From positions 46,965,932-47,029,931 of the forward strand of contig CM067346.1 in assembly GCA_034190875.2 (NCBI GenBank): a stretch of 64,000 bases of DNA, in the 5' to 3' direction. The position numbers and the translations under genes were made by a program. The notes under the pieces were generated by a model, which saw only the letters and a list, made by a program, of their open reading frames with translations, was not told where the DNA came from and did not search any database. This stretch comes from Urechis unicinctus. Lineage: Eukaryota; Annelida; Polychaeta; Xenopneusta; Urechidae. Within the stretch, counting starts at the first letter, position 1, and every line of letters begins with the position of its first letter. Positions 8,331 to 60,900 of this stretch are shown in pieces.

Positions 8331-8335
8331 AAGAG

Positions 8336-8860: not shown

Positions 8861-8869
8861 TGTATAAGC

Positions 8870-9985: not shown

Positions 9986-9992
9986 GTAACAG

Positions 9993-11870: not shown

Positions 11871-11890
11871 CATAAAGCAGTTTAATGTAC

Positions 11891-20914: not shown

Positions 20915-21215
20915 CAGGGATGAAAGTGGCCTGTTAAAAAAAAAAAAACCTGAAAATTTTCCACACACTACATCAATGGGAATACAAAGATAACGGCGGA
21001 CATTACCGATCGCGGAGCGGCAAGTGCCGAAGGCACCCGCCATGATGGGTTCCTGCAAAACGGGAACTTGGTCATTAGAAAATTGGAACTTGGAAACCGG
21101 AACGAAGAAAAATGAAAAATGACAAAACCCGGAAAACTGTACTTCGATAATTATTTAATTTTCGGCGGGCGCAAAACCCGGAATTCCGGGTATACCCGGA
21201 GGACTTTCATCCCTG
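20915..21215. mobile_element. MITE copy 2 in satellite
   Basis: Same ends as copy 1. It is 301 bp because of a longer A-run near the left end and a local duplication of GAAAAAT near 21110. Confidence 0.8.
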
Positions 21216-21925: not shown

Positions 21926-22215
21926 CAGGGATGAAAGTGGCCTGTTAAAAAAAAACCTGAAAATTTTCCACACACTACATCAATGGGAATACAAAGATAA
22001 CGGCGGACATTACCGATCGCGGAGCGGCAAGTGCCGAAGGCACCCGCCATGATGGGTTCCTGCAAAACGGGAACTTGGTCATTAGAAAATTGGAACTTGG
22101 AAACCGGAACGAAGAAAAATGACAAAACCCGGAAAACTGTACTTCGATAATTATTTAATTTTCGGCGGGCGCAAAACCCGGAATTCCGGGTATACCCGGA
22201 GGACTTTCATCCCTG
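21926..22215. mobile_element. MITE copy 3 in satellite
   Basis: 290 bp, essentially identical to copy 1 and in the same place within its satellite block. Confidence 0.8.
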
Positions 22216-22925
22216 ATAAAACCTGATTAGCAAGAGGAAGTGGGGTTCTTCACTAGAGCACTTACCAGCAAGTGTATGGAACTCAAACAGCAAGAGGAAG
22301 AGGGGCTCTTTACTAGGACACTAGCCAGCAAGTGTATAGAACTCCACCAGCAAGAGGATTAGTAGTCCTTCACAAAAGTACTAACCAGCAAGTGTATAGA
22401 ACTCAACCAGCAAGAGGAAAATGGGTTCTTCAATAAAGTACTAACCAGCGAGTGTATAGAACCTAATGAGTTAAAGGAAGAGTGGCTAGTCACTAGAGCA
22501 CTAACTAGCAAGTGTATAGGAACCAAAAGGAAGAGGGGCTCTTTACTAGAGCACTAGCCAGCAAATGTATAGAACTCAACCAGCAAGAGGAAGAGGGGCT
22601 CTTCACTGGAGCACTAGCAAGCAAGTGTATAGAACTAAATGAGCAAGAGAAAGAGGGGCTCTTCACTAGAGCACAAACCAGCAAGTGTATAGAACACAAT
22701 GCGCAAGAGACGTGGGGTTCTTCAGTAGAGTACTAACCAGCAAGTGAATAGAACTCAACCAGCAAGAGGAACAGGGGTTCTTCAATAGAGTACTAACCAG
22801 CAAGTGTATAGAACCCAATGAGCAAGCAGCTCGTCACCAGAGCACAAACTAGCAAGTGTATAGAACCTGGTTAGTAGGAGGAAGAGGGGCTCTTCACTAA
22901 AGCAATAACTAGCAAGTGTATAAAA

Positions 22926-23215
22926 CAGGGATGAAAGTGGCCTGTTTAAAAAAAACCTGAAAATTTTCCACACACTACATCAATGGGAATACAAAGATAA
23001 CGGCGGACATTACCGATCGCGGAGCGGCAAGTGCCGAAGGCACCCGCCATGATGGGTTCCTGCAAAACGGGAACTTGGTCATTAGAAAATTGGAACTTGG
23101 AAACCGGAACGAAGAAAAATGACAAAAACCCGGAAAACTGTACTTCGATAATTATTTAATTTCGGCGGGCGCAAAACCCGGAATTCCGGGTATACCCGGA
23201 GGACTTTCATCCCTG
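22926..23215. mobile_element. MITE copy 4 in satellite
   Basis: 290 bp. Small differences: the A-run is TTTAAAAAAAA and ACAAAAACCC replaces ACAAAACCC. Confidence 0.8.
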
Positions 23216-23925
23216 ATAAAACCTGATTAGCAAGAGGAAGTGGGGTTCTTCACTAGAGCACTTACCAGCAAGTGTATGGAACTCAAACAGCAAGAGGAAG
23301 AGGGGCTCTTTACTAGGACACTAGCCAGCAAGTGTATAGAACTCCACCAGCAAGAGGATTAGTAGTCCTTCACAAAAGTACTAACCAGCAAGTGTATAGA
23401 ACTCAACCAGCAAGAGGAAAATGGGTTCTTCAATAAAGTACTAACCAGCGAGTGTATAGAACCTAATGAGTTAAAGGAAGAGTGGCTAGTCACTAGAGCA
23501 CTAACTAGCAAGTGTATAGGAACCAAAAGGAAGAGGGGCTCTTTACTAGAGCACTAGCCAGCAAATGTATAGAACTCAACCAGCAAGAGGAAGAGGGGCT
23601 CTTCACTGGAGCACTAGCAAGCAAGTGTATAGAACTAAATGAGCAAGAGAAAGAGGGGCTCTTCACTAGAGCACAAACCAGCAAGTGTATAGAACACAAT
23701 GCGCAAGAGACGTGGGGTTCTTCAGTAGAGTACTAACCAGCAAGTGAATAGAACTCAACCAGCAAGAGGAACAGGGGTTCTTCAATAGAGTACTAACCAG
23801 CAAGTGTATAGAACCCAATGAGCAAGCAGCTCGTCACCAGAGCACAAACTAGCAAGTGTATAGAACCTGGTTAGTAGGAGGAAGAGGGGCTCTTCACTAA
23901 AGCAATAACTAGCAAGTGTATAAAA

Positions 23926-24216
23926 CAGGGATGAAAGTGGCCTGTTAAAAAAAAACCTGAAAATTTTCCACACACTACATCAATGGGAATACAAAGATAA
24001 CGGCGGACATTACCGATCGCGGAGCGGCAAGTGCCGAAGGCACCCGCCATGATGGGTTCCTGCAAAACGGGAACTTGGTCATTAGAAAATTGGAACTTGG
24101 AAACCGGAACGAAGAAAAATGACAAAAACCCGGAAAACTGTACTTCGATAATTATTTAATTTTCGGCGGGCGCAAAACCCGGAATTCCGGGTATACCCGG
24201 AGGACTTTCATCCCTG
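23926..24216. mobile_element. MITE copy 5 in satellite
   Basis: 291 bp. It shares the ACAAAAACCC variant with copy 4, which suggests the two blocks are closest relatives. Confidence 0.8.
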
Positions 24217-24928
24217 ATAAAACCTGATTAGCAAGAGGAAGTGGGGTTCTTCACTAGAGCACTTACCAGCAAGTGTATGGAACTCAAACAGCAAGAGGAA
24301 GAGGGGCTCTTTACTAGGACACTAGCCAGCAAGTGTATATAGAACTCCACCAGCAAGAGGATTAGTAGTCCTTCACAAAAGTACTAACCAGCAAGTGTAT
24401 AGAACTCAACCAGCAAGAGGAAAATGGGTTCTTCAATAAAGTACTAACCAGCGAGTGTATAGAACCTAATGAGTTAAAGGAAGAGTGGCTAGTCACTAGA
24501 GCACTAACTAGCAAGTGTATAGGAACCAAAAGGAAGAGGGGCTCTTTACTAGAGCACTAGCCAGCAAATGTATAGAACTCAACCAGCAAGAGGAAGAGGG
24601 GCTCTTCACTGGAGCACTAGCAAGCAAGTGTATAGAACTAAATGAGCAAGAGAAAGAGGGGCTCTTCACTAGAGCACAACAGCAAGTGTATAGAACACAA
24701 TGCGCAAGAGACGTGGGGTTCTTCAGTAGAGTACTAACCAGCAAGTGAATAGAACTCAACCAGCAAGAGGAACAGGGGTTCTTCAATAGAGTACTAACCA
24801 GCAAGTGTATAGAACCCAATGAGCAAGCAGCTCGTCACCAGAGCACAAACTAGCAAGTGTATAGAACCTGGTTAGTAGGAGAGGAAGAGGGGCTCTTCAC
24901 TAAAGCAATAACTAGCAAGTGTATAAAA

Positions 24929-25220
24929 CAGGGATGAAAGTGGCCTGTTAAAAAAAAACCTGAAAATTTTCCCACACACTACATCAATGGGAATACAAAG
25001 ATAACGGCGGACATTACCGATCGCGGAGCGGCAAGTGCCGAAGGCACCCGCCATGATGGGTTCCTGCAAAACGGGAACTTGGTCATTAGAAAATTGGAAC
25101 TTGGAAACCGGAACGAAGAAAAATGACAAAACCCGGAAAAACTGTACTTCGATAATTATTTAATTTTCGGCGGGCGCAAAACCCGGAATTCCGGGTATAC
25201 CCGGAGGACTTTCATCCCTG
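24929..25220. mobile_element. MITE copy 6 in satellite
   Basis: 292 bp, with single-base length changes in C and A runs (TTTCCCACAC, GGAAAAACTG). Confidence 0.8.
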
Positions 25221-25932
25221 ATAAAACCTGATTAGCAAGAGGAAGTGGGGTTCTTCACTAGAGCACTTACCAGCAAGTGTATGGAACTCAAACAGCAAGA
25301 GGAAGAGGGGCTCTTTACTAGGACACTAGCCAGCAAGTGTATAGAACTCCACCAGCAAGAGGATTAGTAGTCCTTCACAAAAGTACTAACCAGCAAGTGT
25401 ATAGAACTCAAACCAGCAAGAGGAAAATGGGTTCTTCAATAAAGTACTAACCAGCGAGTGTATAGAAACCTAATGAGTTAAAGGAAGAGTGGCTAGTCAC
25501 TAGAGCACTAACTAGCAAGTGTATAGGAACCAAAAGGAAGAGGGGCTCTTTACTAGAGCACTAGCCAGCAAATGTATAGAACTCAACCAGCAAGAGGAAG
25601 AGGGGCTCTTCACTGGAGCACTAGCAAGCAAGTGTATAGAACTAAATGAGCAAGAGAAAGAGGGGCTCTTCACTAGAGCACAAACCAGCAAGTGTATAGA
25701 ACACAATGCGCAAGAGACGTGGGGTTCTTCAGTAGAGTACTAACCAGCAAGTGAATAGAACTCAACCAGCAAGAGGAACAGGGGTTCTTCAATAGAGTAC
25801 TAACCAGCAAGTGTATAGAACCCAATGAGCAAGCAGCTCGTCACCAGAGCACAAACTAGCAAGTGTATAGAACCTGGTTAGTAGGAGGAAGAGGGGCTCT
25901 TCACTAAAGCAATAACTAGCAAGTGTATAAAA

Positions 25933-26225
25933 CAGGGATGAAAGTGGCCTGTTAAAAAAAAAAACCTGAAAATTTTCCACACACTACATCAATGGGAATA
26001 CAAAGATAACGGCGGACATTACCGATCGCGGAGCGGCAAGTGCCGAAGGCACCCGCCATGATGGGGTTCCTGCAAAACGGGAACTTGGTCATTAGAAAAT
26101 TGGAACTTGGAAACCGGAACGAAGAAAAATGACAAAACCCGGAAAACTGTACTTCGATAATTATTTAATTTTCGGCGGGCGCAAAACCCGGAATTCCGGG
26201 TATACCCGGAGGACTTTCATCCCTG
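25933..26225. mobile_element. MITE copy 7 in satellite
   Basis: 293 bp and the last copy. The satellite block following it runs to the SINE-like insertion at 26781. Confidence 0.8.
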
Positions 26226-26780
26226 ATAAAACCTGATTAGCAAGAGGAAGTGGGGTTCTTCACTAGAGCACTTACCAGCAAGTGTATGGAACTCAAACAG
26301 CAAGAGGAAGAGGGGCTCTTTACTAGGACACTAGCCAGCAAGTGTATAGAACTCCACCAGCAAGAGGATTAGTAGTCCTTCACAAAAGTACTAACCAGCA
26401 AGTGTATAGAACTCAACCAGCAAGAGGAAAATGGGTTCTTCAATAAAGTACTAACCAGCGAGTGTATAGAACCTAATGAGTTAAAGGAAGAGTGGCTAGT
26501 CACTAGAGCACTAACTAGCAAGTGTATAGGAACCAAAAGGAAGAGGGGCTCTTTACTAGAGCACTAGCCAGCAAATGTATAGAACTCAACCAGCAAGAGG
26601 AAGAGGGGCTCTTCACTAGAGCACTAGCAAGCAAGTGTATGGAACTAAATTAGCAAGAGGAAAAGGGGCTCTTCACTAGAGCACAAACCAGCAAGTGTAC
26701 AGAACTCAATGCGCAAGAGGAACTTGGGTTCTTCACTAGAGTACTAACCAGCAAGTGTATAGAACTCAACCAGCAACAGG

Positions 26781-27204
26781 AGTGAGTGAGTGAGAATACG
26801 GTTTAACGGCACACCAACACGTATGTGTTATATGGCGCCTAGAAAGGTTAATAGATAAGTTTGACCTGATTAAGCAGCCGCCTTCAAAGATAAATGGAAA
26901 AAAGAGGGACATACAAGTGGATGATGTTGAAAAAGATAAAAATGCAAATAGTATCCTAGGGCAAGTCACCACCAGCAGATTGACTGGACCAGGCCATTCC
27001 AGTCTCTCGTCTAGGCAAAATCAGGGCCAGAGTAGTGTGTTGCAGATACGGACCTCAAAAGGACCGCTTCACTCAACCACCAGGATCCCATTGTCCACCG
27101 ACACGAGTCGCAACCCACAGCCAACAGGTTGCCCCCTATTAGTCGCCTCTTACGACATGCAGGAGGATACAGTGGGCCTATTCTACCCCCGGACCCACAG
27201 GGGG
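26781..27204. mobile_element. SINE-like insertion, copy 1, with 13-bp target duplication
   Basis: 424 bp, bounded on both sides by AACCAGCAACAGG (26768-26780 and 27205-27217), a satellite phrase with a private C. The left end is (GTGA)n, then GGTTTAACGGCACACCAACA. The right part has CCTATTAGTCGCCTCTTACG, GTGGGCCTATTCTACCCC and GGACCCACAGGGGG. The layout resembles a repeat I remember from abalone and other gastropods (TTTTACGCCGCACT...TTAGTCGCCTCTTACGAC). A 13-bp duplication fits target-primed reverse transcription. Confidence 0.75.
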
Positions 27205-30020: not shown

Positions 30021-30351
30021 CATCTACTCATCTTACTCTGAGAGCAGCAGAGTTTGCCTCAGCAAATCAAATAATTCTCTACTGTTTACTGGTCAACGTT
30101 ACACATATAATGCAGGCCCCTGGATGTTGGATTTTGTTCCCCCATGAAGGCTGCATGAAAAGATGATGTGAGGTCTTGGTAGCTAGACAGCCTGGGTGTG
30201 CCGATGACCAAAAAAAATTTCCGAAAGTTTTCCACTCAGCATGGGATCGAGTTTCTACAGTTCTAGTAGTAGCAGTGAATGCCTTGCACAAAACAGGGCT
30301 GTTCCCATTAAACACTAATGCAGGGGATCACTCCAGGCTTGGCCCTTCCCT

Positions 30352-30813
30352 GTGGGTAGGTCCACCTTAGCCGAAATGGTTGTAGTCTCTGATGAGCGTG
30401 TTGTTAGCCCTTCCACTGTGGGTAGGTCCACCCTAGCCGAAATGGCTGTAGTCTCTGATGAGCTGGTTGTTGGCCCTTACACTGCGGGTAGGTCCACCCT
30501 AGCCGAAATGGCTGTAGTCTCTGATGAGCTGGTTGTTGGCCCTTCCACTGTGGGTAGGTCCACCCTAGCCGAAATGACTGTAGTCTCTGATGAGCTGGTT
30601 GTTGGCCCTTCCACTGTGGGTAGGTCCACCCTAGCCAAAATGGCTGTAGTCTCTGATGAGCTGGTTGTTGGCCCTTCCACTGTGGGTAGGTCCACCCTAG
30701 CCAAAATGGTTTTAGTCTCTGATGAGCATGTTGTTGGCCCTTCCACTGTGGGTAGGTCCACCCTAGCCGAAATGGCTGTAGTCCCTGATGAGCGTGTTCT
30801 AGTCAAACGCAAT
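30352..30813 (+). repeat. 66-bp in-frame tandem repeat, seven units
   Basis: Unit GTGGGTAGGTCCACCCTAGC, then CGAAATGGCTGTAGTCTCTG and ATGAGCTGGTTGTTGGCCC, encoding VGRSTLAEMAVVSDELVVGP-ST (22 residues) seven times. It lies within the transposase C-terminal region. Since 66 is a multiple of three, the expansion did not shift the frame. Confidence 0.9.
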
Positions 30814-40073: not shown

Positions 40074-40082
40074 ATTCTGCAT

Positions 40083-41095
40083 GCCGAAATAATAGTCACA
40101 GCGCGTTATGGGTTAACTCTCAGAAACTTAAGGCATTGGAATCGATTCTCAACTATTCTAAATGTTTGCTCAATCCTGACTCGATTGGCAATGAGCTTTG
40201 TTCAAGCATATTTCATGAGGATTGGGGTTTTTTTAATTGTCGTATTTCCGATTACAAAAAAATTGAATACCGTTCTCAAATTGTCTGCCGATTACTGACT
40301 CTCTGTGAAAATTCGTGAATCATGCACTGAGCCAGGCCAGCGGATCACAGCATTACAGATATAGTACTCATGGTCGCATATGGCCTGTAAAAGAAAAACA
40401 CAAGCAGATAAATTCTGCATACTACAGCAGAAGTGGCAACTGGGTATTCAAACTTGAACGTTGATACTGTGAACTCCTTTACGTTTTACAAAATCCGGCT
40501 CCCTGTCCCCCAAAGGAGCAATTATGGGCACATGGGTACAGTCAATCGCAACAATGGCGTTCGGCATACCTTTTAAACGAAAATATCATAAATTAAAAAA
40601 GAAAAGACGTATAAAACGATAGAGGTTTTTTTTTCATTATTCTAAAATTCCTTTGTTATAAAAGGTTTATGTACCAAAAATTTCAGAGAATCCTCTTTTA
40701 ATCCGAGCAATTCGTTGTCCTGACAGCATAACTATAAGTTCTGGTACCAAAGACTAGAATGCTGAGCAGACGCGCCACACACATCGACTGACAGTTGCAG
40801 CCGACACCCTTGGCATGGCATCCCCGACAACGATTAAGAATGATCCACATCCAAGGAATCGAAGACAAATAAGAAGTTGAAGCAGTCCAGGCAAAGCCAT
40901 GGCACGGCGCGTAGTATGATCTATTCGAAACTTGATGAAACCCAGCAGGAAAAAAATGTTCCTTCGATCAAAACGATAGCGAGTATACAGCTGTTGATCG
41001 GTAAATACTTCTGTGGGATTTTCCCTGTTCTGAAAAATCCTTCCCCGCCGCATCGCTCTTCTGTATCCTTCTCGTATTATTGGTGGTGCTGCCAT
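40083..41095 (-). pseudogene. HARBI1-like transposase, copy A (broken)
   Basis: The N-terminal part (41095-40754) is open: FTDQQLYTRYRFDRRNIFFL, LPGLLQLLICLRFLGCGSF and SAATVSRCVWRV, the helix-turn-helix half typical of Harbinger nucleases. The rest matches the copy at 56.4-57.6 kb but lacks about 200 bp of it (the part with the GxSGYP motif, joined at about 40222). The C-terminus is absent: similarity stops at 40083, where the foreign transposase gene ends. It cannot make an active nuclease. Confidence 0.7.
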
Positions 41096-41139
41096 TGTAA
41101 CGTTGGATTGGTCTCAACAAAAATCGTCTGCTTTTGTGC

Positions 41140-41305
41140 CTTAGTCGACTACGCAAAAGCTTAGCCAGCTCCGTGGCAGGCTAAGCTTAGTCGACTACGG
41201 AGAGTCATCGTAGGCGTTCGTGAAACGCAATTAAGTCGGATAGTCGGCTAACCATAGTCGGCTAGGCATGATAGTCGACTAAGATGCGTGCGTGAAATAG
41301 GCCAC
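41140..41305. promoter_or_regulatory. Right-end AGTCGACT cluster and terminal repeat
   Basis: TTAGTCGACTACG (twice), TAGTCGGCTA variants and GATAGTCGACTAAG, then GCGTGCGTGAAATAGGCCAC at the end. It mirrors 31855-31992 and is nearly identical to 57720-57877. Confidence 0.6.
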
Positions 41306-41475
41306 AGGGGTCGAAATTACCCCACTTTGCGAAAAATGGTACCAAATAAAAAAGCTATTCTTCATTTTTAATGTAAAGGGACAAAATGTATCATTTGCGC
41401 CAGTGGTCATTTACATGAGACTACCAAACGGCCCTGCCCAAGCGAGATCGGCGCGGCGTTTGGCCGACCCATAGA
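41306..41475. repeat. Flank shared with 57878-58045
   Basis: Begins AGGGGTCGAAATTACCCCAC and includes GACAAAATGTATCATTTGCG and CAAGCGAGATCGGCGCGGCG. It matches the flank of the other HARBI1 copy beyond the Harbinger terminal repeat, so the two loci are related by duplication and not by two independent insertions. Confidence 0.65.
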
Positions 41476-41922: not shown

Positions 41923-41977
41923 CTAGCCGTGCACAACGTCTTTGGTATATATTTATATTACCGTCGTGCACGGCTAG
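41923..41977. repeat. Palindrome P2
   Basis: Outer arms CTAGCCGTGCACAACG and CGTCGTGCACGGCTAG (one mismatch) enclose GGTATATATTTATATTACC. It is the longest and clearest member of the family. Confidence 0.85.
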
Positions 41978-45160: not shown

Positions 45161-45970
45161 TAATTTGCTCCTGATCGATGCATCTTTTTTATTTCTTACC
45201 CTCCCCATCTAGTTAAGACGATCCGAAACAACCTAGCCAACTCAGGTTCTGTACTCAACACACGCTTTCTCTGTGTAGGTGTCACAGCAAATAAATGAAT
45301 TTATCTACAAGTGCATGAAACTATAACCTTATGGTCACATTTGTGAAAAATGACAAATGAAACCTGCAAATCTGGAAATTTCAAATCAAAGCGTTAAAAA
45401 CTTTATTACATAAAATACGACAGACAGAAATAGAAAGAGGTTGGATGAGAACTGATGAAACAACTGAATTAAACGTAATCCATGACTTTTCCTCAGCACT
45501 TGTAGGAAATCTCTCATCACACTAGCAATCTTTGAGTGGACTTAAGCCTTTGTATTAATCCGGGGACTGTGGAAAACAATATAATAATGTGTTTACAGAG
45601 GTTGATCAGGCATTGAAGCAATACCACCTAAAAAGTCATCTTAAGTTTATGCAAACAGCGGAATAATGTCTGAGCGCCATAATTGTATGAAGGTCAAGGC
45701 CGTTCGCTGGGCGCACGCGCAGACGAGGTCTTCGGTAAGCGAACTATTGCTTCCCGCATTTTATGACGTAAGTACATGCTCTGAAAATATTTCTGATTCT
45801 TATTTGTCATTACCTAACTTGCAGTTGGTTTATGTATTCTACCATATTATTTTAACAATTAAATAATTAAAGTGATTTTGAGTGAAATTATTTTAGGCCC
45901 TGAAAGGGATACTTGACATATTAAAACAATGGGTGATATATATACAATATACCAATGTCATTAACACGTG
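45161..45970. other. No recognisable gene
   Basis: Spacer between the P-like transposase and the palindrome cluster at 45976. Nothing coding was recognised. Confidence 0.4.
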
Positions 45971-45975
45971 TAGAC

Positions 45976-46066
45976 GCGCACGACGGTAATATAAATATAT
46001 ACGCCAATAAGACGTCGTGCACGGCCATAACACGTCGTTCACGACTATAACACGTCGTGCACGGCT
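45976..46066. repeat. Palindrome P3 with extra half-sites
   Basis: GCGCACGACGGTAATATAAA, then TATATACG and GACGTCGTGCACGGCC, followed by two direct half-copies, CACGTCGTTCACGACTA (46030) and CACGTCGTGCACGGCTA (46050). Repeated half-sites suggest a protein-binding or replication-slippage history. Confidence 0.75.
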
Positions 46067-46311
46067 ACATCGATCATCGCCCAACATTAAACTACCCGAT
46101 GGTAGTATCCCGCGTGTAAAAGTTTAGTGAACCCTCGTAAATACAGGAAAATAAATAAATATAATTTATTGATTTCCATGAACTCCACCCAATGATGAAA
46201 CCACTCACAATGGATGACTGGGTGTCATTTAAAATAATTCTGGACCCTTAAAAACCATGCAAACCCTACTTTATCAAACAATCTGTATCCATTCACTCCA
46301 ATGATGCAGGT

Positions 46312-46475
46312 AGCTCCGGTCGAACGGTAGCAAAGCTCCGGTCAAACGGTAACATGAATTTATACTCAGACGTCTTGTAGGGCTACTTAGACGTCTTGTA
46401 GGGCTATGATGCAGGGAGATGCCAAACGTAGCCCCAGTAGGACGGTTACATAAGTATAAACGTCGTGCACGGCTA
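46312..46475. repeat. Left-end module cluster
   Basis: In order: GTAGCTCCGGTCGAACGGTA, AGCTCCGGTCAAACGGTAAC, ACTCAGACGTCTTGTAGG, TTAGACGTCTTGTAGGGCTA, GTAGCCCCAGTAGGACGGTT and AAACGTCGTGCACGGCTA. The first module also opens the repeat at 3945 and 63463, the third recurs at 4594, and the last is the half-site of P2, P3, P5 and P7. Confidence 0.75.
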
Positions 46476-46584
46476 AATAAAACACAGAACAGCTTAGTTT
46501 GACTGCAAGGAAATATTCATTTGTAGTCTTGATAAGCAGCTGAATAAAAACCAATGCCATATTATTGTCATTTCCAGGTTCAGA

Positions 46585-49500
46585 ATGTCGGAATCTTGCT
46601 GCGCCTGTGGCGATCCTTTTATTAAGATGAAGGGTGGGTACAACCGCCGATCGTGCTCGATCACTGCTTCCCCCTCGTTCTTTGAGGAAGGTGTTTGGTA
46701 GGGATTTTGAGGGCTACCTGTTTTCAAGTTGTCATACGCAAGTAGTGGGCAAGACAATTGTTGTGAAGAAAGGGAGTCATAGGAGACGCACCTGGCCCTT
46801 CGCAGGCTGCAGTTCATCCCCTGCAGCGCTTAGCACCCCCTCTACAGCATGTAGTCCCCCAACCACTCCACACAGGCTGGCCAAACGTCTGATGGACAAC
46901 TTCAGTCCTCTGCAGTCTCCAAAGAAAGTGAACACAATGACGCACTCCGTCTAAGCAGCGCCCGTCTTTGGTTTTATCGCCCTACAGGCGTCACGTCCGC
47001 CATAGAGCACAGGCATGGGAAGCTGGCCCCTACCAAGCCACATATTCTTACCAGAGGCAAGCTGCCAAGCTCGTTCTTTGTTCGAAGTATCGCCCCATCC
47101 TCAAGCTGTTGTGCGCCAAGTCCAAGGCAGCCAAACATGCCATGTTGGAAGTGGTTTGTTCTCTCATGAGATCAGAGATTGTGGGGCTCACCACCAGGAA
47201 ATGTCGGAGAAAGTCCACTGTGGATACGTTGGCCGGGGGTGTCACCCTCCCTCGACTTCAGGACTTTAGTTGGGGCACTGTCCTGAGTGAGATGAAACAG
47301 AAGGCGCCGATCTTCCACACCGTGCTGGACACAGCCCTCCCCTCGATAGGCACCTTCAGGATGAGGGCCATTAAAGGGCGTAAAGGAAATAGAAGGTGAG
47401 TTTGTGAAACAAGGTTAATCATACAACAGTTTCATAGAAAATAAATTTCCTTAATCCACTGTGTGACATGATATCATGTGTGAACAGAACCCTGAATTTG
47501 TGTGAGGCTGCTGGCTTCAGGCAGTCAAGACTCGGGCAGGTCGCCAATTTAGTCCTGTCTTCTGCTGTGCCCAAGCTCTACAAATTCCTGAGCTCTTCTG
47601 TTGGGTGTGGAGCTTCGGAGGCAAGGATGCTCCCACAAGGACTTTACCTTGTTAAGCCACATGGGCATAAGCCAATCCGCCACTTCCGCCAGAGCCCACA
47701 TCGACATCATCGGACAGGGTCACGCTGATGACGTCAAGGCATGGAAGAATGCCATTGAGGTGATTTAAATATGACATCCGAATAGGCAGATTGTATCCTG
47801 AAATGCATTTCTTAGCACATGAATCAAATAATACAACACAAATACTCTTTCATATTTGCCTGTTGTGTTGTAGTGTGCTGACCAACATGTTGTTGTGGGG
47901 CCAAACACCCGTCGCAGGGTGGCATTTGAAGCTGAACAGGTAGCTGGGATAGACAACAGCCAGTTGAGTTACTCTGTGGGATGGGACAATGTCCAGATGG
48001 ATGTCCACACCAAGCACCAGACATCGGACCACCACAATACGTTCCTCATGATGGGCCTCACGTATGGCGCACGCCACCGCATCCCCTCCCTCCATCTCGA
48101 TGACCACGCCTACACCAACGCCGTGTAAATCCCCGCCAAATCCTTCCTCCCTACTGCCGAGGATTATGACACGTTCCTCCGACCTCGCCTGGTCACTATG
48201 GTGGAACGTGTTCTCGTGAACAACGTGCCTTGGCTAAGGAAGGGTTATGTGGCATATCCCACACGAGCAGACCCAGTCCATGTCACAGAAAACACTTGTG
48301 AGTTCATACAGTATTTATCAATGACTTGCCACAAAAGCATCTCATCTCCTCTTAACTTGTATGAGGTGGTAAACTTATATTGGGGTTCTCATTTGGTCAA
48401 TGCTTAATATATGTGCATGTTGTCAATGATCCCGCCTCTACAGCGGGTGTGATTGGCATCATGGCGCACCTGCACGACTATGTACCTGTCATTGAGAATG
48501 GTCAGCGGGTACACACCATTCCGTGTAATGGTGATCAACTAAGCGTGGAGAGGATGGCACAGGCATCACCGAAGAAAAAATGTGTCAGGGCCTTCTGGAA
48601 ACTCCTCAGGAGTTTCACAAAGAAGTAAGTAAGTCAAAAATATTGTATGGATACAATTTTTAATCACCATAGATGGTTCTCATGGGCCATACATCCATAT
48701 GACTAATACAAGGCATTTGGTTTATTTTTTGTGTACAGGACACAATGAACCTCTTCTTCAATGGTCGGTGCAACACCAACAGGGGGACATTGGCCATGTT
48801 AAAGGACTTCTTCGACCACAGAAGTTTGAATGGCCATGTCATGGAAAGCTTTCAGCATGCCTGGGATTTTGTTGAGGTGAGCTCAATACAAGTAATTGAG
48901 AAATTAATCACATTTCTCATGGCTAAGTCAACTATGGAGCTGCTCTCAATATCAATTACCTTGAATGAACCATCCCTAAAGAAATCCATTCATGTAATGT
49001 TTCAGTTTGTGACCGAGGGTTTCACTGCCCTAACTGCCTTGAAGTTAGCAGATGTTGAGGCACTGGAGATTGTCCTGCATAACTTCCCCAGAGAAGAGAA
49101 TGAGCACACGGCATGGCTCCATCACCTGGCCGAGAGAGTTGTAGAGCACTGCTGGATGCCCTGCAACTCGGAGGAACTCAAGCTAGCAAGACAGACTGCA
49201 GATACCCACAACAATGGCGAGCAGGATGTCAGGCTATACCCCTTCTGTACTGCAAAAGTGGTGAGAGATATTTAGGAATATTTTTCTTCAAAAATATTTA
49301 CTGCTGTAAAAGTTCCCGGTAAGCTTAATTTGCATATTATGTATTGGGCAGTAACAATAAGGCGTTATACAGTATGCTGCACTGAAAACAGACATGGGAG
49401 GACAGATGATTCTGTGCGCCAACAACTTTTGCCCAGTGGAGTGGTACCACATTGGATGCCTCGACCCTCCACTTAGAAGAGCGCCACAAGGCAACTGGTA

Positions 49501-50850
49501 CTGCAGTGAGGCCTGCCAATCTGCACCTGACTTCATATATTGTTCCTGTCAGTTGAAAAGAGGAGATGCAGAGGACATGAGGCTGCTTCGGTGCAAGCTG
49601 AAGGACAACTGCAGGAGAAGGGAACGCTACCACTGGGCTTGTGTTACCCCTGGGCCTGTAAATCTAGGTACAAACATACCTACATATCTAACCTACAATG
49701 AATAATGACAATATATAGCTGGGAGAAAATTAAGTGGAATGCCTGTGCAATAGTTTAAAACTAAATAGATGCTACTAGTTTCCAAACACAAATTATACTT
49801 CCTGACCACAAATGCTTTTCTTGCTGATTTAACTTTGTATCTATTGTTATTGATGGAACTGTGTGAGTAGAAGAGTGGTATTGCAGCGAGGAATGTGAGT
49901 TGGATGAGGAGAAAGATGACGGTGTTTTTGAGTACACAAAAGGACTCATGTGGCATGGTCTTCAGCATCTTGCCAACAGAGATGCTCAAGTTCTGGCGTC
50001 TAAACATGCCAGAGTTTTGGATGCAAGGAAACCCGAAATATATCATCCTCAAGCACTGGCGTCTTGCTAGTAAGTTTTAATCAAGTGTCTAGACTTCCTC
50101 ATAGTCAATGGAAGGTATTTGTTTTAAGGTATATCCCTACAAAGGAACCCTGAAGATATATAACATATTATCCACCTTACATGCCTTGATAAGTTGTACT
50201 CATCATATGTTGTACAGATACCAATGGATTCCAGGCAGCTCGATTGGCCCAGGAGCTCACCTGGGAGAGAGTGACTAATCCAAGTGGTGTCAAGGCGAAA
50301 AATATTCCACTGGATCTGTTAAATGAGTTTCTGAACAACGACTTTAAGGGTAATTCATTTGTTATCTTCATTTATGCATCATAACTACCCAATCCTTATT
50401 GACATCATCATCAACATTATAATAAACATAAGTTTTAAACTGATCACAGACTGCATAAGCATCAGATTGTCAAGGAAATGAACAATTACAAATATGAAAG
50501 TAATGAACGGTACAATCTTAATACCATAAACAACACAAAGCATGACATTGTTACATCACTTATGCATGTAATTCGCTGTGCAGAGATGCTAAAAAAGTCA
50601 CGCGGTAACTACACTGGAAAACAGATCACTCGCTGCAGCCACCTGTGTGGGGCTTTTGGCAAACACATGGACCGGCTCTTTCACCAGGCAATGGGCATGG
50701 GTGTGGAAAGCTTGACTCAACGCAAGAAGCCACTGCGCTACAAACAAGATCTTGTGAAGTTTGTACAGGAGTTCCAGCCTGATGCTTTGGTACACTACCT
50801 GCCACCATGATCCCACTCGGACTTTCCGAACTTCACAAATCGGACTCAGG
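46585..50850 (+). pseudogene. DUF6589-like transposase with PHD finger, element copy 2
   Basis: N-terminal MSESCCACGDPF (zinc-type, as in copy 1), then after a shift EEGVFGRDFEGYLFSS. Exon pieces: to 47395 (FSWGTVLSEMKQKAPIFHTV, donor AG|GTGAGT); 47474-47758 (LNLCEAAGFRQSRLGQVANL); 47879-48300 (LSYSVGWDNVQMDVHTKHQT, first Asp; stop at about 48126); about 48430 (VHTIPCNGDQLSVERM, second Asp); 48739-48877 (LFFNGRCNTNRGTLAMLKDF); 49008-49259; 49394-49667 (ILCANNFCPVEWYHIGC, GNWYCSEAC, a PHD finger of the ING type); and 50218-50353 (AKNIPLDLLNEFLNNDFK), ending near 50810. Introns have ordinary GT-AG ends. At least two frameshifts and one stop disable it. Residues fit my memory of DUF6589 proteins. 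Confidence 0.65.
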
Positions 50851-50862
50851 TACGGGAACCTG

Positions 50863-53800
50863 TTAAGCTAGGGAGCCATCTTCATGCGGTGAGCTCTCAG
50901 TTGGACTTTTGGAGGAGGAGGCAGCGCCGACATCCCCATCCACGACGCCGAGACCCTGACCTCTAGAACAAATGTGACAGCACATTTCTCCTCGGCAACA
51001 AGCCTGGATTTCCTCATCAGTCATTCCCTCAAGCTTAAGTGTCGTTAGAATGCGTCCCCTCAAACAGCTGTCCTGCTCCTTCACCAGCTTCATCATTTCC
51101 TCTGACACTGTCCTTTCATCCACAGAACGTGGGGGCAAATACATCCTTGCACTTCCAGGCAGCCCATCCCTGGCACAGCGGCCCACCTCCTGCCAGTTTC
51201 CGTGAACTGATGAAGCTGGCCCCCAGTGGACAACTTTCCTTTTATCGGGTACCTCAATACCCATTCCAAAAGCTACGGTTGATATGAGGAGTCTTATTGT
51301 TGAGTCTGGCCTACAAAACTCTGTGGTGATAACCTCCTCAGTCTCCGTGTCAAGCTGGCCATGGAACAGCTCAACGTGCACTTCCCGTTCTTCTGCGTTG
51401 TCTCTTTCCAGTGCTTCTACTATTACCTGATAGGTGCTGGTAACATTGTCTATAGTCCTGAAAGCATGACAACATGTGCAGTTTATCACACATTTACGAT
51501 TTGTACTGATGATCCTTGTGGAACAACAATATAACGATATAGTTAGTATTATGATACACATGTTGTACAGTTTTTATACATGTCATGGCTGTTACCTGCA
51601 GTATATAACAGTTTTGGGGGCATTCTCCCCTTTCTCAATGATAAGATCACTAAGCCATTTGATGTTGTCACAGGATGCTACACTGGGAGCCATCTCAAGG
51701 TATATATTTTTCCTGTACAATTGCAAGGGATGTTTTAGCTATTGTGTTATCTTTGTGTTCTAAATTACAAGGTCATATTGTAGTGATTTGACTTTGTAAT
51801 TTGGATGTGATTCCGTTCACTAATTGGCCTCTTCGTGTGTATATAGGATGGTAATAAGGATAGATGTGTTGTCTCAAGGAACTGATCATACAGAAATAGA
51901 GGCATCTATTGGTATTTAGGGGTGTAATTTTAGTGTGGCATTCTAGTAGCAAACACATAAGCTTGTGGCTTATGTGTGATAATATAGTGAGGTCACAATT
52001 TAATACAGAAACCCCGTATTTCAGATTTATCATTTCTGACACAAACCTGTTTGGAACAGCGACAACCATCTGCACGTCTTGCAGATTTACAATATCTGTC
52101 ACTGCCTCTATCACCTGTGTAGTTGCTGTGGCAGTCAGACACTTCACTGGCACTTTAGAGCCCAGCACTGCTCTTAGCTCTCTGACTCGATGGTAGGATT
52201 GGCGGAAACTGCTCCCCCTACAAACACATGATGCAATGATTTTTTAATAATATTGTTATAATTCATATATTAGGCATACACATATTGTGTGTGTGTGTGT
52301 GTGTGTGTGCGGAAACTGCTCCCCCTACAAACACATGATCATGCAATGATTTTTAATAATATTGTTAGTAATTCATAGTTTTATGATTGATAGTGTAGGG
52401 TAGGGTAAGTTTAGGGTATGTTACACATGTTAGGGTCGGGCATGCAAGCATAGGGCATACAGGGTAATGTTATAGTGTAGGGTTAGGGTGTGTGTGTTAG
52501 GGTGTGTGTGTAGATTAATGTAGGGTGTGGGTAGGGTGGGTAGGGTGTTAGGGTAGGGTAGGGTAGGTAGTTAGGTTAAGTTCGTTGGGTAGTTAGGGTC
52601 GGTTAGGGTCGGGGTTAATTTAGGGTAGGGGTAGGTTAGGGTATGTTAGGGGGTCGGGGGTCGGGGTTAAGTTTAGGGTAGGGTATGGTAGGGTGTTAAG
52701 TCGGGTAGGGGTGTAGTTAAGTCGGGGTCGGTAGATTAAGTTAGGTAGGGTATGTTAAGTTAGGGTAGGGTAGGTTAGGGTAGGGTCTGGTGGTCCGTCG
52801 GTAGGTATTTTCCGGTCGTTTAGGGTAGGGTAATGGTTAGGGGTAGGGTAGGTTAGGGTTAAGGGTAGGGTGTCAGTTAGGGTAGGGTAGATGTTAAGTT
52901 AGGGTTCGGGTAGGGTATTGTAAGTGTTCCGTCGGTAAGTAGGGTTAGGGTCGGGGTTTAGTTAGTAATGGTTTCGGGTCGGGTTAGGGGTCCTGTTCCG
53001 TTTCGGGTCGGGTCTGTTAAGTCGGGTAGGGGTAAGTTCGGGTTTCCGTAGGGTAGGGTATGGTAGGGTAGGGTATGGTAGGGTCGATTCCCGTTAGGGT
53101 ATGGGTATGTTAAGTTAGGGTAGGGTATGTTAAGTAAGTAAGTAAGGGTAGGGTAGGGTAGCTTGTTAGGGTTAGGGTATAGGGTTCCGTAGGGTAGGGT
53201 ATGTTAAGTTAGGGTAGGGTAGGGTAAGTCCGGTTCTGGTAGGGTCGGGTTCTGTTCCGCTCGGGTAGGGTCTGTTCCGTTAAGGTATGGTAAGTTAAGG
53301 GTATGGGTAGGGTAGGGTAGGGGTATGGTCGGTTAAGATAGGGTAGGGGGTCTGTTAAGTTAGGGTAGTTCGGGTCGGGTCTGTTCCGTAGGTTAAGGTA
53401 AGTTAGGGTAGGGTATGTTAAGTTAGGGTCGGGGGTATGTTTTTGGTTAGGGTCGGGTCCGGGTAGGGCGTTAGGGTAGGGTTGTTCCGCTCGGTTAGGG
53501 TAGGGTAGGGTTTGTTGAGTTAGGGTAGATTAAGTTAAGTCAGGGTAGGGTAGGGTATGTTAAGTTAGATGAGGGAAAGATTGTGTGTGTGTATATGTTT
53601 GCATTTGTACATGAATGTTTGTGTGTGTGCATGTTTGTGTGTTGACGGTACATGGATATGTAATCTTGTAAATTAAGTGTTATTGTAACTATTACATATG
53701 TTGAAGAAAATTTCTTTACCATAGTTCAAAACAATGTGCTTCGTCTATAACAAGCAGACAAATTTTCTTGGCCAGTGCACGGACCATAGCCATCCATCCT

Positions 53801-54580
53801 TTTTCCAAGATTGCCTCCAGGGAAGTAAACACGAGTTGAAACTCGCCCTTCTGGATTCCTATTTTATGAAACAGAGTAGTTTAGGAAGCTACAATAGAAA
53901 GAAAGCACTGCACCCTGACCCTCGTTGAAAGTTTCTCAAAGAAAAAATAGGTACCATGAATCGTCTCCTCATCCATATCGATGATCTTCTGTATAGAGGC
54001 AGCCTTGACTCCAAGATGTGTCCATCTTAACACCTGGTCACGACTAGGAGCCCGTAGGGGACTCACTATCAGACATATGGAGCCACCTTTTCCCTTAATC
54101 TACAACAAATAACAAGGTTCTTTTTAAAACAACACTGTAAAATATTGTTGCTTAGCAATAATAATTCAACAAAGATTCATCAAGTTTTTCTTTGTTGTGA
54201 TATTAGACAAAATTAAACTTCCATTAAAGAAACAGCACCAAAAAAAAATTATATTCTTTTAACATAAAATTAAAATAAAAAATTGCACCTAACAACGTGG
54301 GGTACCACCAGTACACTTCGGATTTGCTATATCCAGTTGGCAGCGCTCCAAAAATGTCCTTCCCTGACAAGAGCAGACTCATAGCCTTCAACTGTAAAGG
54401 CTTAAGCGTGTAACTAACGCCATGTTGCAATAAAATATCGTGTAATTGCTGTTCCATGATGTCAAAAACACGCTTCAAGAAAAGGGCTAAAAAACGACAA
54501 TCTGATGATACCGCGGAAGCAATTTCCCGCTTTTGGGAAGGGAGAGTGAAACTGAAACTGCTAACAGGACGTGACGTCAT
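50863..54580 (-). CDS. RecQ-like DNA helicase, six exons, element copy 2
   Basis: Exons: e1 about 54291-54580, e2 53955-54099, e3 53720-53858, e4 52047-52217, e5 51596-51712, e6 50863-51457. Phases agree from e2 to e6 without a stop. Motifs: I, ALPTGYSKSE (GYGKS expected); Ia, CLIVSPLRAPSRDQV; FQLVFTSLEAILEKGW; II, LLVIDEAHCFELW; W-GSSFRQSYHRV; III, VKCLTATATTQ; IV-V, LLISTVAFGMGIEVP; VI, NWQEVGRCARDGLPG; then RGEMCCHIC, a possible zinc cluster. About 485 residues, covering the helicase core without an HRDC domain. RecQ proteins unwind DNA 3'-5'. Whether e1 starts at 54580 (MTSRPVS) or 54461 (MEQQ) is open, and the e1-e2 join is not clean. The Ser in Walker A and the Cys-Ala in motif VI (usually GRAGRD) may mean loss of activity. 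Confidence 0.7.
52202..52378. repeat. Duplicated intron 3' end with (GT)n between
   Basis: GCGGAAACTGCTCCCCCTAC, then AAACACATGAT and TTTTTAATAATATTGTTA, occurs at 52202-52268 and 52309-52378, separated by (GT)12 at about 52285-52308. The repeated piece contains the helicase splice acceptor and the first 16 bases of exon e4. Confidence 0.85.
52385..53575 (+). repeat. Degenerate telomere-like array, TAGGG/TTAGGG
   Basis: About 1.2 kb of GGGTA, TTAGGG, GGTTAGGG and related words with frequent variants (TTAAG, TTCCG, TCGGG). The G-rich strand is plus. It fills most of the helicase intron between e3 (DEAH) and e4 (TATAT), so the pre-mRNA would be C-rich here. TTAGGG is the usual animal telomere unit. 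The mixed 5- and 6-base units and noise mean this is either an old interstitial array or a poorly called real one. Confidence 0.85.
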
Positions 54581-54802
54581 AATTCATTCATGAAGGAGGT
54601 TGCCGAGAACGAAAGTTGTGATTCTAAAAGTTCATGTGAATATTGCTAAATAATCACGAGACAGTGGATAACCAAAATAATGTGGATGGATGGATATTGA
54701 TCTCATTTGTCGACATATATAATTACGTAAGTACACAACATTGATGAGAAGCTACCCGCACGCGAAATACAAAACTTTCCACACGACCCACATATCTTCG
54801 GT

Positions 54803-54833
54803 CACGACGGTATATATTTATATTAACGTCGTG
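54803..54833. repeat. Palindrome P5, upstream of the helicase
   Basis: CACGACGG and TAACGTCGTG arms around TATATATTTATAT, then GTGCGCGGCTAG. It lies about 220 bp before the first helicase ATG on the minus strand, where a promoter would be, and has a TATAAATA core in that orientation. Confidence 0.75.
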
Positions 54834-54982
54834 CGCGGCTAGGAGAGAGTACGTCAACGCACGTCACTCGCACACTGCGCAAGGTGCACGTATTGGCGCC
54901 TGGCCGTGAGCGTATGTGGTAAGTGCTTTACCTTGCCTACGGCCGTGCGAGCGGTATATAGGCCGAACGACCTTCACGTACA

Positions 54983-55639
54983 ATGTCCATACTCTCGCAT
55001 GTTGTAAGTGCGTGGAAGTCCCAGATGAACGTGAGTTTTTCCGCCCATTATGCTGCCTCAAGATGCTTCTCCAGAAGTCCCATTCCACCACAGAGACTCC
55101 GGGTTCTGATGCTGCAAGAGCAGCTTCAATTGGCAACGCATGAGCACGACATTGTATTACTTGCCTTGATACGGGAGAGGGAGAGGCAACAGGGACGCCA
55201 ACGCAGGAGATGGTGGGTTCGTCCATGGATCGAGAGGAGGAGGCTTTTCGGGCAGTACGAAACGTTGTTCCAAGAGCTAGAGCGTGAATCGAGGGGGGAC
55301 TATGTCGGATACATCCGAATGGACCCCAAGCTCTTCGCCGAGCTCCTGCTCCGAGTGACCCCTCGAATCACCAAGGGCCCAAGATATGTGTCTTCATTTC
55401 TGCCATAAAAATGCTTGGTTTTGCTTTTTGTATTTGCTTAAAAATGTTGTCTGATCATTTCACGAATACATTCTATTAATCCATTAATATTAATGTCTCT
55501 ATCTTGGTATTTCTGAGATATGGCACATTATTGCATGGGACGTCAATAGTAGTATACGGTGCCAATTTGAGCCCCCTTAAGAAAAAGGAATGGTTAAGGT
55601 ATTGGTTATGGTTAAATCATAACAACAGCCATGACCTTG

Positions 55640-56378: not shown

Positions 56379-57600
56379 CTACAGCGTGTCTGCGTGCTCC
56401 CAAATCCGTACTGAGGCGGTACTCACCACGTACGGATCCCCAAATTTTGCCCACGTTTTTGCACGCACTTGCAAGTACGGCGGGTTGGGAACACGGCTTA
56501 AAGCAGAACCTTCTTCAATGTTGTTCAAGAGCCCCACCTCGATATCTTCTTCTTCTTCTTCAGTCACATTAGCAAACCGAATATCGTTGCGCAAACAAGC
56601 ATTATCATGGAGAACAAAACATGCCGAAATAATAGTAACAGCGCGTAATGGGTTGACTCCCAGAAACTTAAGGCATTGGAATCGATTCTCAACTATTCTA
56701 AATGTTTGCTCAATCCTGACTCTCGATTGGCAATGAGCTTTGTTAAAGCATATTTCATGAGGCAATGCTGGGCCGATGTATGGGATCAATAAGAACGTCT
56801 TACATGGGTAACCTGAGTTGCCCAATAGAAAACCGTTGGGTGTCTCTGAAATACAGGGCAATAGTAGACACATAACATTTCTGTTATTTTTTTTTGGAAG
56901 TAATTGTGTTGTCTGTTGCAGATGGTGAATAACAGTCTCTATGACTCGGCTCATGTTGATTGGTTTTTTTTTAATTGTCGTATTTCCGATTACAAAAAAA
57001 ATTGAATACCGTTCTCAAATTGTCGGCCGATTGCTGACTCTCTGTGAAAATTTGTGAATCATGCACTGAGCCAGGCCAGCGGATCACAGCATTACAGATA
57101 TAGTACTCATGGTCGCATATGGCCTGTAAAAGAAAAACACAAGCAGATAAATTCTACATACTACAGCAGGGACTCAGTTACTCAATTATAGCAGAAGTGA
57201 AAACTGGGCATTCATACTTGAACGTTAATACTGTGAACTCCTTTACAGTTTACAAAATCCGGCTTCCTGTCCCCCAAAGGAGCAATTATGGGCACATGGG
57301 TACAGTCAATCGCAACAATGACGTTCGGCATACCTTTAACTTTTAAACAAAAATATTCTATATTAATTAAAAAAGAAAAGATGTATAAAACAATAGAGGT
57401 TTTTCTTCATTGTTCTAAAATTCCTTTGTTATAAAAGGTTTATGTACCAGAAATTTCAGAGAATCCTCTTTTAATCCGAGCAATTCATTGTCCTGACAGC
57501 ATAACTAAATGTTCTGGTACCAAAGACTGGAATGCTGAGCAGACGCGCCACACACATCGACTGACAAAACGATAGCGAGTATACAGCTGTTAATACTTCT
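56379..57600 (-). pseudogene. HARBI1-like transposase, copy B (broken)
   Basis: C-terminal frame 56954-56379: ETPNGFLLGNSGYPCKTFLL, LPHEICFNKAHCQSRVRIEQ, FRIVENRFQCLKFLGVNPLR and VTIISACFVLHDNACL. The family motif is GDSGYP; here it is GNSGYP, so a catalytic Asp has become Asn (codon at 56817-56819). The upstream coding part continues to about 57600 but lacks about 170 bp that copy A keeps (40788-40965, joined at about 57566). Poly-acidic EEEEEDIE follows the core. Not functional. Confidence 0.75.
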
Positions 57601-57719
57601 GTGGGATTTTCCCTGTCCTGAAAAATCCTTCCCCGCTCTTCTGTATCCTTCTCGTATTATTGGTGGTGCTGCCATTGTAACGTTGGATTGGTCTCAACAA
57701 AAACCGTCTGCTTTTGTGC

Positions 57720-57877
57720 CTTAGTCGACTACGCAAAAGCTTAGCCAGCTCCGTGGCAGGCTAAGCTTAGTCGACTACGGATAGTCATCTAAGCCTAATG
57801 TGTTCGTGAAACGCAATTAAGTCGGATAGTCGGCTAAGCGTGATAGTCGACTAAGAAGCGTGCGTGAAATAGGCCAC
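57720..57877. promoter_or_regulatory. Harbinger end of copy B
   Basis: TTAGTCGACTACG (twice) and GATAGTCGACTAAG, then CGTGAAATAGGCCAC at 57863-57877, as at 41140-41305. No Myb-like gene or opposite end was found to its left. Confidence 0.6.
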
Positions 57878-58045
57878 AGGCACAGGGGTCGAAATTACCC
57901 CACTTTGCGAAAAATGGTATCAAATAGAAAAGCTATTATTCATTTTTAATGTAAAGGGACAAAATGTATCATTTGCGCCGGTGGTCATTTACATGATACT
58001 ACCACACGGCCCTACCCAAGCGAGATCGGCGCGGCGATTGGCCGA
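57878..58045. repeat. Flank shared with 41306-41475
   Basis: Matches up to CGATTGGCCGACC, then the two loci diverge. The start has an extra AGGCAC before CAGGGGTCGAAATTA. Confidence 0.65.
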
Positions 58046-59150
<1,105 letters not shown>

Positions 59151-59152
59151 CA

Positions 59153-59825
59153 TCATAACAAATGAAGACACAATATCTTACTAACATGGCAATCACGCAG
59201 GTGATGGTGTTCAGGCGTTGTGTGGAGATGACATGGATTGATTCTAGCTGACTGATCAAACAGGAAGCTTATGTCCTGAACAATCGATATCATGGTTCTG
59301 ACACAAGGAATGTTCGAACTACGGACCAAAGACAGATTGAAACAATGCGATTTGCAATGTACGTAATTTACATGTGGTGAACGTTCACGGATAAGAGCTT
59401 GAAGTCCCCCAAATTTCCAAGATAAGTTTGACGCACCGTCATAGCGCTGAGCTCTGATCTTAAGTATATCGAGATTTGCTTCTTGCAAGAGTTCTACAAT
59501 GTTCGCGCAAAGTGCGACTCCCTTGATCGATTCACACACGACGAATCCAAGAAATTCTTCTCGGACTACGCAACTCCCATCGATGAAACTCACGCAAAAA
59601 GACAGTTGTTTTTTTTGTCGATTTGTCTGTTGCTTCATCAACCATGGTGGCGCAATAGGGGCACGACCGACAGTCTTCCAAAAGTTGTTTCTTCACCTGA
59701 CTAGCGCAAATACCAATTAATTCATTTTGGATTTCTGATCCCATGTGCCGGCTGTAAAGATTTTCTCTTGTCCGTCTATGCCTCCGAACAAACAGCAGTT
59801 CACACAAAAGACGGCATCCTTTGTC
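59153..59825 (-). pseudogene. hAT transposase fragment (ZMYM/DUF4371-like)
   Basis: Two overlapping frames. 59780-59610: MGSEIQNELIGICASQVKKQ, then YCATMVDEATDKSTKK (first catalytic Asp region). 59620-59153: QLSFCVSFIDGSCVVREEFL, LDILKIRAQRYDGASNLSWK (second Asp region) and VNYVHCKSHCFNLSLV. This is the order seen in ZMYM1/5-like hAT proteins. A frameshift near 59610 separates them and the C-terminal dimerisation half is missing. Confidence 0.7.
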
Positions 59826-59839
59826 ATGGATAGCCGCGA

Positions 59840-60130
59840 ACGACGGTAATATAAATATATACCGTCGTGAGTGAGGATATGTGGGTCGTGTGGCAATTTT
59901 TTTTATTTCGCGTCTCCGCGGCTTACCACCAAGTTGTGTACTTACGTAAATATATATGTCGACAAATGAGATGAATATCCGTTTCTCCGCACTATTTTGG
60001 TTATCCACTGGCTCGTGATTATTTAGCAATTGTCAAATGAACATTTAGAATCACAACTTTCATTCACGGCAGCCCCAGTTTTGGGGATATGACGTCACAT
60101 TACGCAGTTTCATTTTCACTCGCCATGTGG
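59840..60130 (+). pseudogene. Second copy of helicase 5' region with palindrome P6
   Basis: The palindrome (59840-59868: ACGACGGTAATATAAATATA, then TACCGTCGT) is perfect. The 260 bp after it match the reverse complement of 54541-54800 (GTGTACTTACGTAA, TATATGTCGACAAATGAGAT, CGTGATTATTTAGCAAT, ATGACGTCAC), down to the helicase start codon and its first codons at about 60089. Similarity then stops. It shows that palindrome plus leader plus ATG travel together as an element end. Confidence 0.65.
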
Positions 60131-60900
60131 CTGCAGGTCCCGGAGGAGGGGGCACTTAAGTATATAGAGGTAGTATACATGTTTCAGCCTCCCGACGAGT
60201 TTTGTTGACCTCATAATTGTAGGATGGGGTATGCTCTTGCCATTTCTACCTTGTATGACGGGTACAGGTTTTTGAGATCCCGGGGCACAACCCTACGTAG
60301 GACAAGGCCAAATGCCCCCTCCAGACTACGGGAATCAATAAGTGTTATCTTTTTTTAAATGTCAATGTGATATCGTTGAATACATATCGCCCTTCAAAGT
60401 AGATATTTCCAAAAGATAATCATTGACAAAATGACACATATACTCAAATAATAAAATTCAGAAAGAAAAAGTTCGCTTGCGAGGAACCTTGTCTGCGCAT
60501 GCGCGCAGAAACCGATCTTGTCGTTCAAAATAAACATGAACTTTTCAGAATTTGTGTGGCCGGATTAAATCGCCTTTGACGAAATCTCACACGTAAACTA
60601 ACTCAACTTGTTAATAAACATTCATTTATGTGAAAAATTATTCTTCATATGTACATTTGTGTAATTATCGTGTATAATTGGAACTCATGTATCGTTCACG
60701 CGCATTCGGTTACGATCTTTGCACGACGTTAATAAACGTCGTGCACGGCTATGTCATGGAGTACCTCAACCAAGGTATTTCCGTTAAACATTTTCCGCTG
60801 AGTTTTCGCCGCTGACGACATAGCCCTGGAAAAGAAAACTACAATAATAAATAATGGTTTTTAAAATTAAATTGTTACAAGACAAAGAATTTAAAAAAAA
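60131..60900. other. No gene recognised; palindrome P7
   Basis: GCACGACGTTAATAAACGTC, then GTGCACGGCTA, at 60721-60751 is a perfect 24-bp palindrome with the same half-site as P2 and P3 but a short AATA core. Confidence 0.6.

Follow-up and report, generated by a model that had tools for sequence, protein, structure and literature searches.

A probable AcademH-type DNA transposon with a convergent RecQ-like helicase gene, and its 57-bp miniatures, in the genome of Urechis unicinctus

Helicase-bearing transposons of the Academ superfamily are described under the name AcademH, a lineage reported from animals and fungi (Kojima 2020, Mob DNA 11:15; as given in excerpts of PMC10045372 and PMC10799480). 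According to the excerpt of PMC10045372, AcademH target duplications are 9 or 10 bp in length, and those of the related AcademX, in which a nuclease replaces the helicase, are 3 or 4 bp. The subject here is a module of a transposase gene and a RecQ-like helicase gene, arranged tail to tail, in the annelid Urechis unicinctus. It lies in a stretch of 64,000 nucleotides, hereafter the window (assembly GCA_034190875.2, contig CM067346.1, positions 46,965,932 to 47,029,931 of the forward strand), where one long copy (copy 1) is accompanied by two shorter relatives (copies 2 and 3). The module is very probably explained as a whole by a decayed DNA transposon of AcademH type that has the helicase as a normal part. 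That assignment is made because a helicase and a 9-bp target duplication are both present, and the element fits the already known AcademH kind on these two traits, compared by description.

Copies elsewhere in the genome (1.19 Gb, 926 contigs searched) support the convergent RecQ-like helicase gene as a normal part of the mobile element. At one locus (L040, 6981-9894) a helicase-only copy of 2,914 bp has both transposon termini and sits between exact copies of TGACTGATC. L041, on the window's own contig, carries both genes in 8,385 bp (1514-9898) between exact copies of GATACAAAT. The same convergent gene order is seen in L042. The original prediction had assigned the helicase to the element, and its placement in L040 and L041, together with clear purifying selection in three of six copy pairs, bear it out. 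It had also proposed to look for full genomic copies with precise ends; L041 has both genes and the exact 9-mers, with a damaged left end. L042 was also seen to contain (at 600-7500) a partial tandem duplication of about 3.8 kb that covers parts of both genes.

A search with the right 301 bp of copy 1 gave 1691 first-look candidates, of which 40 were scored (identity 85-100%). A complete right end was present in 29 loci, and 13 of the 29 also showed, at 752-938 bp, a left terminus with no more than 4 mismatches to TAGCCGTGCACGACG, preceded by a 9-mer with no more than 1 mismatch to the one following the right end. Both termini and a 9-bp duplication were then scored in the window and in loci L001-L076, which partly overlap and were mostly chosen for similarity to these ends; with up to 3 mismatches allowed in the termini and 1 in the duplication, 30 distinct elements were called, against 1 in five shifted controls combined. 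The calls comprise 13 of 57-58 bp, one of 77 bp (the window's site), one of 752, one of 873, thirteen of 914-938 and one of 2,914 bp. The window itself holds a non-autonomous derivative of 921 bp (59831-60751, minus strand), whose left 294 bp match the right 301 bp of copy 1 at 82% identity and which is bracketed by TGTCATGGA at 59822-59830 and again at 60752-60760 (both plus strand). An intact left terminus is also found at L050 (C4:29.30-29.31 Mb), with the flank TACTGACAC.

Substitution patterns in the helicase gene point the same way. The ratio of nonsynonymous to synonymous substitution (dN/dS) was 0.28 between the window and L042, 0.25 between L042 and L040, and 0.38 between L041 and L042; these low values in three of the six pairs are clear purifying selection, the protein having been kept working during copy multiplication. 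The transposase gave 0.47-0.52 in three pairs, and pairs with L040 yielded no codons. Poorly aligned codons were removed throughout (helicase: 19/297, 2/431, 0/331, 21/285, 4/225 and 0/321; transposase: 99/808, 6/359 and 50/332).

The association is also met outside this family. At four of eight second-lineage DUF6589 loci examined (L001, L002, L003 and L005), a RecQ-like helicase is present on the opposite strand within 1.5 kb; all four rank among the genome's five strongest DUF6589 loci, and their transposases have no match to that of the window. In a locus of the second lineage that was examined in detail (L076, 2102-5087), a DUF6589 transposase exon sits in antisense orientation with a helicase exon on either side. 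The pairing therefore recurs in a distant lineage. Element ends were looked for in the L076 lineage and not found.

Copy 1, a 5'-truncated, helicase-carrying transposon, occupies 45665-54841 on the plus strand. Its left limit comes from homology, which begins at 45665 in L041, L050, L051 and L052 and further right in L049, L048 and L053, so that 46312, proposed earlier as the start of the module, is not an end. Its right end, at 54841, is common to genomic copies, and the right terminus (54810-54841, plus strand) reads TAGCCGCGCACGACG inward. The transposase gene (46585-50810, plus strand, about 10 exons) aligns with L041 and L042, has the motifs GWDNVQ and GDQLSVER, and includes a PHD finger exon at about 49364-49665 (plus strand). 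Convergent with it, tail to tail, is the helicase gene (54457-50863, minus strand, about 6 exons), with SF2 motifs and a short Cys-rich tail, an arrangement that agrees with the one proposed for 46.6-54.6 kb. Copy 1 is broken: the transposase has frame breaks near 46690 and 46955 and an in-frame stop at 48126-48128, and the Walker A motif of the helicase is changed relative to L040, L041 and L042. An inverted repeat at 45971-46002 and 54810-54841 was considered for the terminal repeats of the element and rejected, as its flanks do not match and 45971 belongs to a nested miniature (see below). Further terminus-like motifs, close to the start of the transposase gene at 46028-46067 and 46461-46475, are perhaps transposase sites or remnants of miniatures. 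An intron of the helicase gene contains a degenerate TTAGGG-like, TG-rich satellite at about 52280-53570 (limits approximate), which shows self-similarity; it is strand-asymmetric, with a GC skew of 0.48 across 52001-54000.

Tail-to-tail relatives had been predicted at 10-12 kb (internally deleted) and 14.9-17.4 kb (diverged), and the layout does recur in both places. In copy 2 (9990-12025), the N-terminal part of the transposase (9990 to about 11.86 kb, plus strand) meets a match to helicase exon 1 (12025-11888, minus strand), the C-terminal parts of both genes being absent. Copy 3 (15040-17272) is decayed; it retains the helicase on the plus strand (about 15.04-16.4 kb; Pfam Helicase_C, 2.5e-12) and a C-terminal piece of the transposase on the minus strand (17051-17272), which stood out among six frames tried, with a score of 66 where 200 shuffles reached no more than 54. 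Copies 1 and 3 share the place and phase of two helicase introns, the places being those that the prediction named: the intron after P-N/D-R starts at 52046 in copy 1 and at 15689 in copy 3, and that after Y-C-R at 51595 and 15900. A scan for terminal repeats plus an 8-10 bp duplication gave no convincing ends for copies 2 and 3; the same scan did recover the derivative at 59831-60751. Beside copy 3, open frames at 17324-17929 (plus strand) presumably resemble the end of a LINE reverse transcriptase, and 17672-17929 has no Pfam match.

By sequence, the helicase is RecQ-like. The joined pieces of copy 1 matched Pfam DEAD (4e-17) and Helicase_C (7.2e-14), and solved structures matching at E 0.001 represent 42 distinct sequences, 38 of them DNA helicases and 4 RNA helicases; 35 of the 38 are named WRN, BLM, Q1, Q4, Q5 or RecQ, with human WRN and RECQ5 in the lead. 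No Pfam match to the accessory RQC or HRDC domains was obtained up to E 10 with the joined helicase model, which ends in the short Cys-rich tail alone. For the transposase, the Pfam comparison that had been proposed for the joined exons succeeded for PHD (4e-5, 24 bits, at its cut-off), as it did for the two helicase domains, and fell short for DUF6589 (PF20231), with E 0.007 and 15.6 bits against a 27-bit cut-off in copy 1 and 13.5 bits in copy 2. Better evidence came from relatives. A window transposase exon has 26 genomic matches (13 at 82-100% identity, 10 at 70-72% and 3 short), and four of those at about 70% (C15:613729, C8:18652248, C10:64843549 and C3:74455602) each lie about 200 bp upstream of a same-strand DUF6589 match, with 29.6, 28.7, 28.2 and 26.9 bits (27.4 with neighbours) against the cut-off of 27. 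Because these four diverged exon copies adjoin DUF6589 matches, there is good evidence that the transposase would be of the DUF6589 kind. As catalytic residues, the aspartates of GWDNVQ and GDQLSVER are putative candidates. A search of the joined transposase against a protein database returned 7487 candidates, none at E 0.001, and a literature search on DUF6589 found nothing.

Several observations weigh against a helicase-bearing transposon as the account of this module. Copy 1 has neither a left terminus nor a duplication, although its start at 45665 without that terminus explains the missing duplication. The left terminus of L041 is short of about 17 bp, and no copy was seen to combine both genes with two intact termini. 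The remaining 16 of the 29 complete-right-end loci showed no left terminus with a matching 9-mer inside the 1.5-kb flank; DUF6589 loci L004 and L006-L008 have no helicase within 1.5 kb; and the three helicase pairs among the window, L041 and L040 gave dN/dS of 0.62-0.68, values that fit later decay. RecQ helicases are host genes, and human WRN and RECQ5 being the best solved-structure matches might suggest a host RecQ gene captured as functionless passenger DNA. Similarity alone does not discriminate here: across motifs V-VI copy 1 shares 38% identity with WRN (28/73) and 42% with copy 3 (33/79), and this similarity does not separate transposon from host helicases. Capture is nevertheless very unlikely, given that the helicase is present in two further, diverged copies of the window and in a second DUF6589 lineage, that two intron places and phases are common to copies 1 and 3, and that three of the six pairs give dN/dS values of 0.25-0.38.

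It is harder still to credit an assignment to KolobokH, which is the other lineage of transposons to carry a RecQ helicase. Kolobok elements duplicate TTAA, and the duplications seen here are 9 bp long and of varied sequence, next to a transposase of DUF6589 kind. Although KolobokH does encode such a helicase, the excerpt of PMC9587614 that says so reports the lineage from fungi only. The many repeats in the window would allow the transposase and helicase pieces to be chance neighbours from separate elements, and this is the least credible account of all, barely worth entertaining: the convergent order is repeated in copies 1, 2 and 3, in L041 and in L042, the last two recurrences speaking against it already, and the helicase of L040 is bounded by the transposon's own termini.

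A helicase-carrying transposon of AcademH type thus remains the preferred account, and its miniatures may be the part that a specialist would not expect. To the 57-bp unit, the right end contributes its first 32 nt and the left end its last 24-25 nt. One such unit is nested in copy 1 (45971-46027, plus strand), between flanks TAACACGTG and TAACACGTC. Six related loci, L048-L053, lack this insertion, beside which the window has an extra 20 bp, a repeat that follows the miniature; a 77-bp reading ending at 46047 is therefore also possible. A diverged miniature of 53 bp (41924-41976, plus strand) has both termini without an intact 9-bp duplication. When the left 210 bp were used as query, 40 of 435 first-look candidates were scored, giving 30 loci (L046-L075). 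Both ends of the unit could be placed in 22 of these 30, the window's site included (19 of 57 bp, two of 58 and one of 59); in the other eight (L047-L053 and L062) one or both ends are absent. L062 and L063, with nearly the same flanks, are probably duplicates of one site. A genome-wide pattern search allowing 3 mismatches recovered 30 miniature copies, that of the window among them, and its backwards control none; three copies at C9:41.34 Mb, set at even distances, look like a single array. A literature search on very small elements turned up none of 57-bp size among the entries listed, which is weak evidence for their absence from print.

These 57-bp offshoots appear to have jumped themselves. 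It could be held instead that they are immobile products of recombination or slippage between inverted ends, as they are barely more than two ends and form hairpins: a single-stranded 57-nt unit folds at -14.3 kcal/mol, with 2 of 200 shuffles equally stable, a hairpin that is expected because the ends are inverted. Six of the 22 placed miniatures also lack a duplication even with 1 mismatch allowed. Such an origin is nonetheless unlikely, for 9-bp duplications of differing sequence are exact in 10 of the 22 and within 1 mismatch in 16, against 0 of 462 mispaired flank controls, the 30-bp left flank is identical in no pair of the 22, and the insertion is absent from the six related loci. At 8 or 10 bp, an exact duplication was found in none of the 22.

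How the element moves can be proposed in outline. A transposase of DUF6589 kind with a PHD finger would recognize the TAGCCGYGCACGACG termini and excise the element; as a DDE enzyme, it would insert it through a staggered target cut of 9 bp, a chemistry to which the observed duplications point. The helicase would most likely work in trans during transposition, opening the ends or freeing a strand to let synapsis, strand transfer or gap repair go ahead. Derivatives of 57 bp and about 0.9 kb without a complete gene also carry 9-bp duplications, which argues against the helicase gene being required in cis. Shared termini and duplications suggest that the same enzymes mobilized the internal-deletion derivatives of 0.75-2.9 kb and of 57 bp. 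To our knowledge, no helicase of a cut-and-paste transposon has a tested role.

The smallest units raise a physical difficulty, since 57 bp is well under the persistence length of duplex DNA and such a duplex is stiff. In a Mos1 study (PMC2642840, in excerpt), fragments below 90 bp were said to need considerable force to bend, with the thousands of 80-bp Hsmar1 elements presented as a contradiction, and the transposase itself was shown to bend the ends, by about 90 degrees. In Paramecium, very short loops are suggested to be favoured by bending factors or by local melting, and helical phasing is discussed (PMC3408717, in excerpt). It is conceivable, if doubtful, that the helicase melts the DNA between the ends, so that a 57-bp unit would be synapsed, excised and reinserted as locally melted duplex or as a 57-nt hairpin; little weight is given to this because transposase bending, or synapsis between the ends of two copies, would also help. 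Were it true, helicase-carrying transposons would have a smaller size limit than helicase-free ones, and the 57-bp units would rank among the smallest transposed units of any such DNA transposon. Members of the family measure from 8.4 kb, where both genes are present, down to 57 bp, nearly the ends alone. This span offers a natural test of the role of the helicase, and the ends required in cis would be no longer than about 32 bp at one side and about 25 bp at the opposite one.

Other repeats in the window include a long satellite array at 18173-26781 (units of about 60 bp, repeated words spaced about 1,000 bp apart, strongly AT-skewed), a 66-bp tandem repeat of about 7 copies with 94% matches at 30339-30793, and one repeat in two copies, at 40080-41469 and 56620-58047, with 89-95% identity in three blocks. 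A transposase piece at 56379-57014 (minus strand; Pfam DDE_Tnp_4, 2.2e-11) is one that we take to be of Harbinger type; the frame at 54962-55408 (plus strand), without a Pfam match, may be its N-terminal part.

Among known systems, AcademH is closest, with a helicase within the element and a duplication length that includes the 9 bp seen here. Beyond these described AcademH traits, the window element has a separate convergent helicase gene, a PHD-finger transposase and a 57-bp derivative. AcademX shares the Academ superfamily, but its duplication of 3 or 4 bp differs from the 9 bp found here, and KolobokH is likewise a DDE transposon with a RecQ helicase, but of another superfamily. For the miniatures, the nearest parallels are the 80-bp Hsmar1 elements of human, likewise very short and with a mobility that strains DNA bending, but derived from mariner and of 80 rather than 57 bp (excerpt of PMC2642840), and the internal eliminated sequences (IESs) of Paramecium, likewise very short transposon-related DNA, which are excised by a piggyBac-derived enzyme (excerpt of PMC3408717).

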